DNA from: Rhodanobacter sp. DHG33
Lineage (GTDB): Bacteria > Pseudomonadota > Gammaproteobacteria > Xanthomonadales > Rhodanobacteraceae
Assembly: GCF_014843005.1 (NCBI RefSeq)
Contig: NZ_JACYXM010000005.1
Location: 186,001-250,000, forward strand
Reading direction: 5' to 3'
Length of the DNA stretch: 64,000 nt
Under the pieces are notes generated by a model that did not search any database, was not told the DNA's origin, and saw nothing but the letters and a program-made list of their open reading frames with translations. A program made the position numbers and the translations under genes. This document shows, in pieces, positions 8,731 through 13,142 of this stretch. How positions within the stretch are numbered: the first letter of the stretch is position 1; every line of letters starts with the position of its first letter.

Positions 8731-9402
8731 TCAAGGCTCCGTATCGGTCGCCTGTTTCTTTCGGCGTGAACCACTGGTGCGCGTGGGTTTGCGCGCGACG
8801 TGAGCATTGGCGTCGTTGCTGGCAGATGATCGGCTGCCCAGGTGCTCCATCCACGTCAGCACGTCGGCATAGGCGATGAAGTGCTGCAGGTATTCGGATG
8901 AGACATCGCGCATCAGCTCCATGGCGCGATAGGTCAGCACACGGGAGTGCAGCGGGCCGGCATCGTCGGGCAAGGAATCCAGGCATTGGCGCAGCAGGCT
9001 GTCGATGCGGATGCGGCTCCACAATTGCTGGAACTCGTCCAGCACCGGCATCGGCGCGGCGATGGCGACGAAAGCCTCCTTGCTGGGCGGCGCGGCAGGC
9101 ACGGTCTGCGGCGCGCCATCCCATCGCGGTGCGTCGGCGAATTGGGTCAACAACTGCTTCAGCGGACTTTCGCCGGTGCGGTGCGAAGGCTTGGCCTCGG
9201 GTGGATTGGCGAGCAAGCCAGCGTAGGTTTCGGCGAGCTCATGCAAGCGCGCATCCAATCGATGCCGCAAGGCGCCGTCGTGATGCGCGGCGCGTTGCGC
9301 CATCGCGGTCATCAACGCGAAGCGCAGCGGGTCGATGCGGTCGGCGCCCTGCTCGCGCCACGCGGCCAGCCGCGCATGGACGTCGGGCAGCTCAGTGGGC
9401 AT
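8731..9402 (-). CDS. DUF2894 domain-containing protein (last gene of motor-like operon)
   Basis: 223-residue soluble, largely helical protein of unknown function, recognised as DUF2894. No signal peptide or membrane helix is seen. The N-terminal half is rich in Arg, Ala and Leu, and the C-terminus is a basic tail (RKPTRTSGSRRKK) that could bind nucleic acid or membrane. The ATG at 9400-9402 lies inside the end of the OmpA-family gene (11-base overlap), so it is translationally coupled as the fourth gene of the DUF3348-DUF802-OmpA-DUF2894 operon. The constant partnership suggests it works with the membrane motor-like pair, but its role is not known. Confidence 0.82.
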   Translation of the reverse strand: MPTELPDVHARLAAWREQGADRIDPLRFALMTAMAQRAAHHDGALRHRLDARLHELAETYAGLLANPPEAKPSHRTGESPLKQLLTQFADAPRWDGAPQTVPAAPPSKEAFVAIAAPMPVLDEFQQLWSRIRIDSLLRQCLDSLPDDAGPLHSRVLTYRAMELMRDVSSEYLQHFIAYADVLTWMEHLGSRSSASNDANAHVARKPTRTSGSRRKKQATDTEP

Positions 9403-10033
9403 CGGTCTTGCTGCGCGGGATCGGCGCGATTTCCACGCGGCGGTTCTTCGCGCGGCCGGCGGCGTCATCGTTGGAGCTGACCGGCTGCTCGGCGCCGAAC
9501 GCGGCGGCGAACAGTGACGACGACGGCACACCGTCGGCAATCAGCGCACGGGTCACGGTGAGCGCGCGCGCGGCGGACAGCTCCAGGTTGTCGGCGAAGC
9601 GGGCATTCGTCGCGCGCACCGGCTGGTTGTCGGTGAAGCCGCTGACCATCAGGATCTCGTCGCGCGCCGACAGATAGTCGCGCAACGGGCCGGCGAGGCT
9701 TTGCAGCAGTTCGCGACCTTCCGGTTGCAACTGATCGGAATTGAGCGCGAACAGCACATTGCCGCTGATGCCGATACGGCCATCGACCAGCGTCACGCGC
9801 CCGGCTGCCAGCGGTGCAGCCAGCGCCTGCTCCAGCGTCTTGAGGCGGGCGGCCTCGGCCTGGCGCTGCTTCACCTCCTGATCCAGGCGATGGTGCAGCA
9901 GCAGCTGGATGCCGATGACGCTGGCCAGGATCAGCACGAAGGCGCCCAGCAACACCGACATCAGGTCGCCGAATGCGGCCCAGGTGGTGGCGCCGGACTC
10001 GGCGCCGGGCTCGAATTCGATCTCGTCGCTCAT
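9392..10033 (-). CDS. OmpA-family, MotB/ZorB-like membrane protein
   Basis: 213-residue protein with one N-terminal membrane helix (about residues 24-45) and a periplasmic OmpA/MotB peptidoglycan-binding domain (about 85-205; signatures SGFTDNQPV, NLELSAARA, KNRRVEI). An acidic residue, Asp23, sits at the start of the helix in FGDLMSVLLGAF, the position of the proton-binding Asp of MotB and ZorB. Start ATG 10031-10033 overlaps the stop of the DUF802 gene (ATGA). With the upstream protein it forms a predicted proton-channel/stator pair of the MotAB, ExbBD, TolQR and ZorAB type. Family is confident; energised function is inferred. Confidence 0.88.
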   Translation of the reverse strand: MSDEIEFEPGAESGATTWAAFGDLMSVLLGAFVLILASVIGIQLLLHHRLDQEVKQRQAEAARLKTLEQALAAPLAAGRVTLVDGRIGISGNVLFALNSDQLQPEGRELLQSLAGPLRDYLSARDEILMVSGFTDNQPVRATNARFADNLELSAARALTVTRALIADGVPSSSLFAAAFGAEQPVSSNDDAAGRAKNRRVEIAPIPRSKTDAH

Positions 10034-12438
10034 GCGCTTGCGGGCTCGACGTCGCTGCGCGTGCCGGCGAGTTGCTGCAGCTCGCCGATGATCTGCTTCT
10101 GCGACAGCATGCTCAGCTCGATCACCTCGCGCGCCTGCGCCACGTAATAGGCCAGTTGCTCGTCGCTGCGCGCCAGCGACTTGTCCAGCGCCGACTCGAT
10201 GCCCTGCAGGCGCTCGTTCAACGCTTCGGTGGATTGCCCGAACAGCTGCACCGCACCGCCGAAGGCCTCGCCCAGGCTGGCCACTTCCACCGCGCTGCCG
10301 GTGACATGGGCCGCGGCTTCGTCCAGCCTGCCGGCTTCGCTTTCGACCTGCGCAGTGAAGCGGTTGCCGACGCGCTCCAGCAGGTCGGCCGAGGTGGCGA
10401 CCAACGCGTCGATGGCGCCACGCTGCTCGTTGGAAGCGTGGTTGACCGCATCGAGCAGGGTCTGCAGGGTTTCCAGCAGCCGGCCGCGTTCCTCCAACAT
10501 GGCGGTGTCGCGCACCATGCTGTCGGACAGTTTCTGCCGCAGCTCGGCCACCACTTCGGCCGCAGCGCGCGGCGCCTCGGAGGCGGTGGCGACCAGCCGC
10601 GAAATTTCGGCCAGAGTGTCGCGTGCCTGCGCCTGCGCCTGCTCGCTCATGGCCTGTGCGGTCTTTTCCAGCGTGGCGCAAACCTGTTGCTGGTGTGCAG
10701 CCACCCGTTCGTTGCCCTGCTCCCAGCGCTGGCCGAACTCGTCGGTCAGTGCGGCGAAGGCATCGCGCCATTGCGCCAGTCGCTCGGCATCGCGTGCCTG
10801 CAGCGCGGCCTGCAGTTCGCCGTGCGAGTGCTGCAGGGCTTCGATCATCGCATCGCTGCGCTGCGCGAATGCCGAGGCGGCCTCGCTCAGCGTCAGTGCG
10901 TTGCCGGCGATGCCGTCCAGCGCACCGTCAGTCGCTGCCTGCAGGCGCGCGGAGACCTCGCCGGTGGTATGCGCCAACGCATCGCAGATCTGTTGCTGCT
11001 GTTGCGCCACCTGTGCACCGTTGCGCTGCCAGTTTTCATCCAATGTGGCGAGCATGCCCGCCAGCGCCTGCGACCACTGCGCCAGCCGCTGTTCGTCGCG
11101 CGCGGCCAGGGCGGATTGCAGTTCGCCATGCGACTGCTGCAAGGTGTCGACCAGCGTGCGCGCATGCTGGTCGAAGCTGGCCGAAGCGGCGGCCAGTGCC
11201 TGCTCGTTGCGCTTGGCGAGGGCGTCGTGCGCTTCGTGCTGGCGGCCCAGCGCACCATTCCATGCCTCGGCGATGCGGGCACTGTTGTCTTCCAGCCGTA
11301 CGGCCACGCCGTCGACCAATGCCGCCGAACGCTGCTCGAAGGTGTCGGCGAACTGCTGCAGCACATGCTGCAGGCCATCGGTCAGTGCCGCGTTGCCGCG
11401 CTGCTGCTCGGCGACGGCAGCGCTCCAGCTGTCGCGGGCGGCGCTGGCCGCGCCCTGCACGGCGTTGTCGAGTCCGTCGAGCTGTCGCCGCACGGCTTGT
11501 TCGATGGCCGCATGAAGGTGATCCGACTTCTCCGCCAGGCCCGCCATGGTCGTATCCACCACGGGCTGCAACGCGGCACCGACGGCATTGGCCTGCTGGG
11601 CGATGCCATCGTGCAGCGCCTGCTGCAACATGGAAGCCAGCTGCGTGTAGGCGGCCTCGGTGCGCTGCTGGAACGCTTCCTGGCCGGTCTGCAGGCGTTC
11701 GCCAGCGGCCTGTTGCTGGCGTTCCAGTGTCTCGGCCAATGCCTGCAGGCGCTCCACCAAGACCGGCATCAGCGCGTTCTGCTCCTGCAGCAAGCGGAAG
11801 GTTTCGCGGCGCTGACTCGACGGCGAATGATGGCCCAGCTGTGCGGCGATGCCGGCATCGAGCAGCTGCACCGCCTGCGTACGCTCGCGTCGCACCAGCG
11901 CCGACAGCAGGCCCAGCGCCGCCGAGGTCGCCACGCCGGCGATCGACGTACCGAAGGCGAAGCCCAGGCCCTTGACCGGCGCGGCCAGCGAACTGCGGAT
12001 GGCGTCGAGATCGGTGGCGCTTTCCAGCGCCAGGCCGGTGCCGCGCAGGGTGGCCATCATGCCCAGCAGGGTGCCGAGCATGCCCAGCAGCACCAGCAGG
12101 CCCACCAGGTAGGACGTCAATGCGGGCGCGGGCAAGCCCACGCGTTCGCCTTCGACGCGCAGTCGCACGCTGTTGCGCAGGCCGGACTGCAGTTGCGACA
12201 GCCAGCTGCCGAGGTTGTCGGCGGCTTCGCCGATGGACGGCAGCGCCCGCACCAGCGTGGCGGTGGCCTGACGGTAGCGCAGCAGCTCGAACGCGCCGGC
12301 GAGATAGCAGGCGGCGATCAGCGCGGCGACGGCGGCGGCCAGCGTGTGATTGCCGAGGTAGCCGATGCCGATCCAGCACACGGCCAGCAGGCCGGCAAGG
12401 AACACGACGGGGATCAGGAAGTTTCTGGACATGGTCAT
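10030..12438 (-). CDS. DUF802 protein, MotA/ExbB/ZorA-like with long coiled coil
   Basis: 802-residue protein recognised as DUF802. Two helices near residues 8-50 are followed by a pair of MotA/TolQ/ExbB-like helices: LVGLLVLLGMLGTLLGM (about 111-128) and GFAFGTSIAGVATSAALG (about 159-178). From about residue 205 onward it is a Gln/Ala/Glu-rich predicted coiled coil of nearly 600 residues, expected in the cytoplasm. This layout resembles ZorA of Zorya systems, which has a proton-channel head and a long intracellular tail. The tail contains a near-repeat of about 102 residues (SHGELQSALAARDEQRLAQW near 436 and SHGELQAALQARDAERLAQW near 538). The start overlaps the DUF3348 stop (ATGA). Confidence 0.87.
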   Translation of the reverse strand: MTMSRNFLIPVVFLAGLLAVCWIGIGYLGNHTLAAAVAALIAACYLAGAFELLRYRQATATLVRALPSIGEAADNLGSWLSQLQSGLRNSVRLRVEGERVGLPAPALTSYLVGLLVLLGMLGTLLGMMATLRGTGLALESATDLDAIRSSLAAPVKGLGFAFGTSIAGVATSAALGLLSALVRRERTQAVQLLDAGIAAQLGHHSPSSQRRETFRLLQEQNALMPVLVERLQALAETLERQQQAAGERLQTGQEAFQQRTEAAYTQLASMLQQALHDGIAQQANAVGAALQPVVDTTMAGLAEKSDHLHAAIEQAVRRQLDGLDNAVQGAASAARDSWSAAVAEQQRGNAALTDGLQHVLQQFADTFEQRSAALVDGVAVRLEDNSARIAEAWNGALGRQHEAHDALAKRNEQALAAASASFDQHARTLVDTLQQSHGELQSALAARDEQRLAQWSQALAGMLATLDENWQRNGAQVAQQQQQICDALAHTTGEVSARLQAATDGALDGIAGNALTLSEAASAFAQRSDAMIEALQHSHGELQAALQARDAERLAQWRDAFAALTDEFGQRWEQGNERVAAHQQQVCATLEKTAQAMSEQAQAQARDTLAEISRLVATASEAPRAAAEVVAELRQKLSDSMVRDTAMLEERGRLLETLQTLLDAVNHASNEQRGAIDALVATSADLLERVGNRFTAQVESEAGRLDEAAAHVTGSAVEVASLGEAFGGAVQLFGQSTEALNERLQGIESALDKSLARSDEQLAYYVAQAREVIELSMLSQKQIIGELQQLAGTRSDVEPASA

Positions 12439-13142
12439 TCGGTGCGCAGCGCTGCGAGCAGGCCGTCGATGGGGTGGAAACGGACCTCCAGCTCCGCCAG
12501 CAGCGCCATGCGCATGTCCTGGCGGAACCGTGCCAGCCAGAGGCCGGTTGCGGAGGCGTCGTCCGGCGCGTTGGCGCCGGTGGAATGGGGTGCGCCGGCT
12601 TCGTGCAGGCGCTGATAGTGATGGCCAAGCAGGCCGGGGACCCTGGCCAGCAGCATCTGCTCGCGCGGGCTGAGCACGGCTTCCATCACCGCATCCACCT
12701 CGGCCAGGCGCGCCTTGGCCGGCGACTGGCGGGCCAGCGCGTCGCGCAGGCGGCCGCGCAATTGGCCGGTGGCGCTTTGCATCGCACGCTGCACGGCCAT
12801 GCAGTGCTGGCGATACGGGTGGTACTCGTCGTCGATGGCGGAAGCATCCTTGCGTGCGGGCATGGCCGGCGCGATGTCGGCGTCGATGGCCTGCTGCAGC
12901 GCATGGCGCGCTCGCACGCACTCGGCATCGTGGGCATCCCCGGTATCCGCGCCATCCTCGGCGGCAGGAAGGCCGCCATCCAGCGCGCGCGACAGCACGA
13001 GGGCGCGGTTCCAGTCGAACCAGTCGGCCAGCCGCTCGGTCAGCACCGGCGGCGTGCGCGGCAGGTCGGCCTCGCTGAAGCGGGCCAGCAGGCGGATGAA
13101 CGCCGGGCCCAGCACGGGCGTCCGTGTGGAAGCTTTCGCCAT
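12435..13142 (-). CDS. DUF3348 family protein (first gene of motor-like operon)
   Basis: 235-residue soluble protein, recognised as DUF3348, with no signal peptide or membrane helix. The ATG at 13140-13142 (MAKASTRTPV) is preceded by AGGGAC; the open frame continues upstream through GC-rich non-coding sequence that was excluded. Conserved-looking stretches are LADWFDWNRALVLSRALD, YHPYRQHCMAVQRAM and LSPREQMLLARVPGLLG. It heads the four-gene operon with the DUF802, OmpA and DUF2894 genes and is transcribed away from the M1 peptidase. Biochemical role unknown; conserved co-occurrence suggests it is a cytosolic partner of the membrane complex. Confidence 0.83.
   Translation of the reverse strand: MAKASTRTPVLGPAFIRLLARFSEADLPRTPPVLTERLADWFDWNRALVLSRALDGGLPAAEDGADTGDAHDAECVRARHALQQAIDADIAPAMPARKDASAIDDEYHPYRQHCMAVQRAMQSATGQLRGRLRDALARQSPAKARLAEVDAVMEAVLSPREQMLLARVPGLLGHHYQRLHEAGAPHSTGANAPDDASATGLWLARFRQDMRMALLAELEVRFHPIDGLLAALRTE

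Follow-up and report, generated by a model that had tools for sequence, protein, structure and literature searches.

A Rhodanobacter operon matches type III Zorya in all four genes and encodes a ZorA tail with a conserved far end

What kind of system is encoded where the two genes of a membrane motor lie between genes for soluble proteins of the families DUF3348 and DUF2894? The question is raised by an operon in a 64,000-nucleotide stretch of the Rhodanobacter sp. DHG33 genome (3.76 Mb, 43 contigs), the whole of which is referred to as the window. An earlier note on this DNA had described the operon as an uncharacterised motor whose flanking genes are not known Zorya effectors, and had offered defence and envelope maintenance among its possible functions.

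Gene content and identity of the operon

The operon consists of four genes on the minus strand, at positions 13142–8731 (all operon features given below are on this strand). Adjacent genes overlap by 4, 4 and 11 bases, as the earlier note had it. The first gene (12435..13142) encodes a soluble DUF3348 protein of 235 aa without a hydrophobic segment (PADLOC PDLC00658, 2.6e-81; Pfam PF11828, 2.4e-74). It is followed by genes for (i) type III ZorA, 802 aa, with a membrane motor head and a long cytoplasmic tail (10030..12438; PDLC00650, E 0), (ii) type III ZorB, 213 aa, with one transmembrane helix and an OmpA peptidoglycan-binding domain (9392..10033; PDLC00651, 2.8e-108; Pfam OmpA, 5.5e-18), and (iii) a soluble DUF2894 protein of 223 aa (8731..9402; PDLC00652, 2.2e-59; Pfam PF11445, 6.5e-40).

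The type III models of PADLOC-DB match all four proteins (ZorG3, ZorA3, ZorB3 and ZorF3, E 0 to 2.2e-59). What defines type III was found: a MotA/ExbB-like ZorA head with a long tail, a ZorB helix with a conserved Asp together with an OmpA domain, and a zorAB pair flanked by DUF3348 and DUF2894 genes. We conclude that the window operon is almost certainly a complete type III Zorya locus.

Type III is an already known kind of Zorya; the gene set has been named, modelled and phage-tested since 2021. In the literature searched, at least two papers mention both DUF3348 and DUF2894. As given in the available text of Payne 2021 (PMC8565338), 6,401 gene pairs lying between DUF3348 and DUF2894 (printed as zorBC) were named Zorya type III, and the locus of Stenotrophomonas nitritireducens DSM 12575, placed in E. 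coli BL21-AI, made at least one phage plate significantly less well and was protective at an MOI below 0.1. This plasmid expression in E. coli is the sole phage test of type III known to us (PMC8565338). Mariano 2025 (PMC11890865), in the portion available, mentions type III by name in the introduction and in figure 1, and presents solved ZorAB structures with 5:2 stoichiometry for types I and II. An uncharacterised motor without known partners is ruled out by the PADLOC matches and the 2021 report (PMC8565338): DUF3348 and DUF2894 proteins are the named partners of type III, and a close relative of the window locus protected E. coli.

That tested locus is in our own set of relatives (L119, identical accession). 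The window proteins are 76% (DUF3348), 85% (ZorA), 89% (ZorB) and 62% (DUF2894) identical to those of L119. All four genes, their order and their overlaps are shared with type III, and nothing sets the window apart; a 102-residue tandem duplication in the window ZorA tail is also present in the tested ZorA (798 aa). Phage protection by the window locus is proposed from that of its close relative.

The window operon resembles Zorya types I and II (ZorABCD and ZorABE) in the ZorA head, the long tail and a ZorB that has the Asp and an OmpA domain, but it carries DUF3348 and DUF2894 in place of ZorC, ZorD or ZorE. PADLOC finds none of these three in the four operon genes (E up to 10), nor does it in the ten flanking genes scanned (E up to 1e-5), and their reported absence thus holds for the operon. 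The names of the two partners are swapped between sources: the DUF3348 protein is ZorF in Payne 2021 (PMC8565338, available text) and ZorG3 in PADLOC-DB v2, while the DUF2894 protein is ZorG in the former and ZorF3 in the latter.

General libraries give the four proteins the Pfam names DUF3348, DUF802, OmpA and DUF2894. The best NCBIfam model for ZorB is called 'hypothetical protein', and NCBIfam has no match at E up to 1 for the DUF3348 or DUF2894 protein. General annotation leaves the parts as DUF or hypothetical proteins, and type III loci are therefore easily overlooked without a defence library.

A scan of named genomes gave 518 relatives, of which the best 80 were retained. These come from Xanthomonas, Stenotrophomonas, Pseudoxanthomonas, Lysobacter, Dyella, Rhodanobacter, Fulvimonas, Luteibacter, Paraburkholderia and Caballeronia, plus two oddly labelled genomes. 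The four genes stand on one strand and in the same order in 77 of these best 80 loci; in the remaining three, contig ends cut the operon. With the order kept to this extent, the arrangement is not a product of chance. The four genes were likewise found at all 28 loci of a wider set, the window among them (for L086, DUF2894 by reading alone). Both the ZorAB-type motor with a long tail (by PADLOC models and relatives' loci) and the constancy of its two partners in Xanthomonadales and Burkholderiales, as claimed earlier, are borne out.

One record (L131) is titled Bacillus subtilis SK7B5; its operon is Stenotrophomonas-like and groups inside Stenotrophomonas. The assembly is probably mislabelled or contaminated.

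The motor parts: ZorA head and ZorB

By a simple hydropathy plot, the first 185 residues of ZorA contain four hydrophobic segments; a 596-residue tail with four prolines follows. The conserved motor core (residues 101–185; 11884..12138) comprises the motif LGMLGTLLGMM and the next helix, and reaches 3.73–3.97 bits over residues 101–175. Likeness to MotA/ExbB around residues 110–185 is weak but present. Against 32 MotA/ExbB/TolQ proteins, hhalign aligns residues 75–137 at E 5.8e-5 with a probability of 66%, the PADLOC models ZorA2 and ZorA1 match residues 109–191 and 112–221, respectively, and NCBIfam ZorA_1 matches residues 111–222. The best-scoring ZorA1 model of PADLOC matches along the tail. 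A phmmer search of ZorA against the PDB returned no match at E up to 1.

ZorB carries Asp23, the presumed ion-relay residue (codon at 9965..9967), in the motif FGDLM within its single helix. Loss of this Asp among homologues had been named beforehand as a sign against the motor reading; no loss was seen. All 77 relatives from named genomes have the residue (73 FGDLM, 4 FADLM), as do all 28 proteins of the wider set including the window (27 FGDLM, 1 FSDLM) and, in a third comparison, all 17 sequences. A ZorB profile finds two PDB entries, 8vvn_B (E 3.2e-7, profile positions 10–202) and 8qyd_F (E 1.1e-6, positions 8–200), which are titled there as MotB-related and membrane protein, and which we take to be ZorB structures. 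Both matches span the helix and the OmpA domain.

Set against MotAB, ExbBD and TolQR, the window proteins share the third-helix motif LGxxGTxxGMM, the Asp in the B-subunit helix, and the MotB-like OmpA domain. They differ in the long ZorA tail and the dedicated soluble partners, and Pfam MotA_ExbB matches ZorA below its cut-off (E 0.116; 13.6 bits against 22.9). Likewise, among the 25 NCBIfam matches listed, none to a MotB model is above the cut-off of that model. On sequence grounds, stator ancestry of ZorA and ZorB is supported, while membership among the stators is not. The MotA/ExbB-like helices of the earlier note stand, by the hhalign result and the ZorA models; DUF802 as the MotA-like part does not, given that both DUF802 copies lie in the tail.

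The ZorA tail

The tail (residues 207–802; 10033..11820) contains two Pfam DUF802 copies, at residues 327–375 and about 378–430 (the second from genome coordinates). As a candidate motor domain DUF802 was rejected, because these positions make it a tail repeat. We found no mention of DUF802 in the literature searched.

Conservation over 81 ZorA proteins has two peaks. The first is the membrane core described above. The second is in the far tail, where residues 601–725 score 3.28–3.68 bits and a block at residues 751–775 (LDKSLARSDEQLAYYVAQAREVIEL; 10114..10188) scores 3.89 bits, equal to the motor core. The middle of the tail is variable and gap-rich.

Part of the variation consists of tandem duplication. 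In the window, residues ~411–460 recur at ~513–562 (10753..11208; 50% identity over 50 aa, offset 102). Under a test requiring at least 50% identity over 40 residues, 40 of 77 ZorA proteins longer than 600 aa, the window's included, contain tail repeats, with offsets of 40, 51, 55, 62, 87 or 102 residues or sums of these; none of 77 shuffled tails has a 40-aa repeat. The commonest length among the 77 is 698 aa (20 proteins), and the 698-aa ZorA of locus L125 is without 102 aa at the window's duplication region. Across loci L117–L196, lineages appear to lengthen the tail (window 10033–11820) by different tandem units, of 40, 51, 62, 87 and 102 residues.

The hydrophobic period of the tails is 3.66, near 11/3. 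With six repeat units, a coherence at this period as high as the observed one arises in 59 of 20,000 random sets, a figure to be read with the facts that the six include a 22-residue weak repeat below the 50% threshold and that 3.66 was derived from the same proteins. When the period is fitted (best fit 3.615), it does so in 57 of 5,000 random sets, and with the four strong units in 318 of 20,000. These results are only suggestive of a tendency for duplicated units to preserve helical register.

Since conservation peaks at the core and at the tail end, with a variable middle between them, we read the tail as a lever that can be adjusted in length and docks by a fixed end. The conserved end could instead serve pentamer closure rather than docking. 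We found no report of the lever and duplication pattern in the literature searched, which covered few subscription papers, and we do not claim that it is unpublished.

The soluble partners

Neither partner has a recognised relative of known structure: searched against the PDB, a profile built from 46 DUF3348 proteins reached a best E of 0.82, and one built from 53 DUF2894 proteins 0.039. A common origin of the two was considered and rejected (hhalign probability 1.5%, E 0.034). The DUF3348 protein has no match in phage records. No effector or nuclease family was found in either by PADLOC, Pfam, NCBIfam or PDB profile search, and the invariant columns of both alignments contain no nuclease or ATPase motif that we recognise.

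These results bear on two explanations of how the system acts. One partner might be a nuclease of unrecognised fold, so that a DNA-cutting module has been recruited to the motor as in types I and II, both of which work via DNA-damaging soluble proteins (PMC11890865, available portion). We consider this quite improbable, with no nuclease match in any of the four resources and no nuclease motif among the invariant residues. Alternatively, ZorAB could itself be the effector, with activation opening a route for ions and so arresting the infected cell, and the two soluble proteins only sensing or regulating. Payne 2021 (PMC8565338, available text) did propose the partners as regulators of ZorAB, and the lack of an effector family in both fits this; however, the available portion of Mariano 2025 (PMC11890865) describes types I and II, not type III, as acting without depolarisation and through DNA damage by the soluble part. 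ZorAB as the effector is unlikely in our judgement, less so than the nuclease.

Distribution, inheritance and neighbourhood

Of the 15 genomes of the genus, 8 carry the DUF3348 gene, all of them among the 12 good ones. In the family it occurs in 71 of 197 genomes, or 71 of the 166 good ones, spread over 14 of the 26 genera; a class sample has it in 9 of 377 genomes. Carriers have one copy each, and none of 14 control genomes has the gene. ZorB relatives are in 27 plasmid records, mostly of Caballeronia, Paraburkholderia and Burkholderia.

Within the genus, the window and five of the seven other carriers have the operon at one site, flanked by genes for an alpha/beta hydrolase and an M1 peptidase. 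The other two (L042 and L045) carry a diverged operon with other neighbours (49–52% identity to the window for DUF3348 and ZorA, 73% for ZorB, 35–36% for DUF2894). In four operon-less congeners, the hydrolase and M1 peptidase genes are 1.4–4.2 kb apart. The interval itself varies among congeners (L043, L044, L047, L077–L080), with GGDEF-like and epimerase-like genes, as judged from translations only. A local defence hotspot at this site was considered and rejected, these being the genes found there in operon-less congeners (again by translation). Elsewhere, 12 Xanthomonas loci share one site, and the 78 loci compared fall into at most 47 site groups, an upper figure from crude gene calls and 7-kb flanks.

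Identity of the operon to the window is 76.8% in a genome of another family (rpoB 80.6%) and 63–64% in the two diverged congeners (rpoB 94–95%). Across all 27 genomes, operon and rpoB identity correlate (Spearman 0.71), and inside the family the coefficient is 0.21 (20 genomes). A 79-row tree places the window together with four Rhodanobacter, one Fulvimonas and three Stenotrophomonas, among them the tested strain (SH-aLRT 99), and puts four other Rhodanobacter elsewhere; the tree is a quick search without bootstrap, and such splits alone are no proof of transfer. Taken together, tree splits, site data and rpoB data argue for horizontal transfer: the operon is at odds with the rpoB history and, by these comparisons, appears to have crossed families.

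Flanking genes were called for 27 of 30 loci chosen out of the 80, giving 128 of 144 genes. Between two and four of the 128 match PADLOC at 1e-10, a count given without a background rate; the commonest Pfam neighbour among the families listed (25 of 113) is a TonB receptor (7 of 128). None of ten window flanking genes matches at this threshold; one hydrolase has a weaker match (1.2e-6). The operon is outside defence islands; the survey for such islands that the earlier note had called for found none. At the nearest relative, a gene near the operon (L117:1780–2940) encodes an AAA_21/AbiEii-like ATPase and matches 20 PADLOC families, best HEC-01A (5.1e-46).

Could the operon be a housekeeping envelope motor, its defence effect in E. 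coli a by-product of expression? Single copies in each of the 71 carrier genomes, ordinary neighbours without a defence island, and the shared site of the 12 Xanthomonas loci are what such a motor would show. On the other side, the operon is missing from 4 of the 12 good genus genomes, where its flanking genes lie close together, two congeners carry a diverged version elsewhere, and operon identity follows rpoB identity only poorly within the family. We regard a housekeeping role as highly improbable. Of the functions offered beforehand, defence is supported, while envelope maintenance is disfavoured because of the patchy presence and signs of horizontal transfer.

Proposed mechanism and significance

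The reading we favour, with some confidence, is that the locus is a chromosomal anti-phage type III Zorya of a Rhodanobacter-like bacterium, in which a 5:2 motor sends a signal to its tail end and the partners block the phage. By analogy with the solved types I and II, ZorA and ZorB would form a 5:2 ion-driven inner-membrane motor, with the OmpA domain anchored to peptidoglycan and Asp23 of ZorB relaying ions. Phage DNA entry would perturb the envelope and cause ZorB to grip the wall, whereupon ion flow would rotate the ZorA pentamer together with the tail, whose length at 1.5 Å per residue comes to about 90 nm; this, too, is by analogy with types I and II. Those two types need the tail, peptidoglycan binding and ion flow (PMC11890865, available portion). 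Because the tail-end block is as conserved as the motor core, we place the signal at the far tail end, which may be the docking place of the DUF3348 and DUF2894 proteins. Once docked, these would execute the block, on incoming phage DNA or on the cell.

In support of this mechanism are the type III models, 62–89% identity to the tested locus, the invariant Asp, the two ZorA conservation peaks, and a patchy, transferred distribution. Against it are the lack of a defence island and of any nuclease or other effector family found in the partners. A tentative extension, possible but rather unlikely, is that type III may defend without a nuclease of its own: torque passing through a length-adjustable coiled-coil tail would let the invariant end block switch the two partners. 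If true, this would be motor-driven immunity unlike that of types I and II with their DNA-cutting modules. The locus is a clean case for how a motor and two soluble partners stop phage; handles on the effector step are offered by the conserved block in the far tail, by the series of duplications and by a distribution that is mobile yet outside defence islands.
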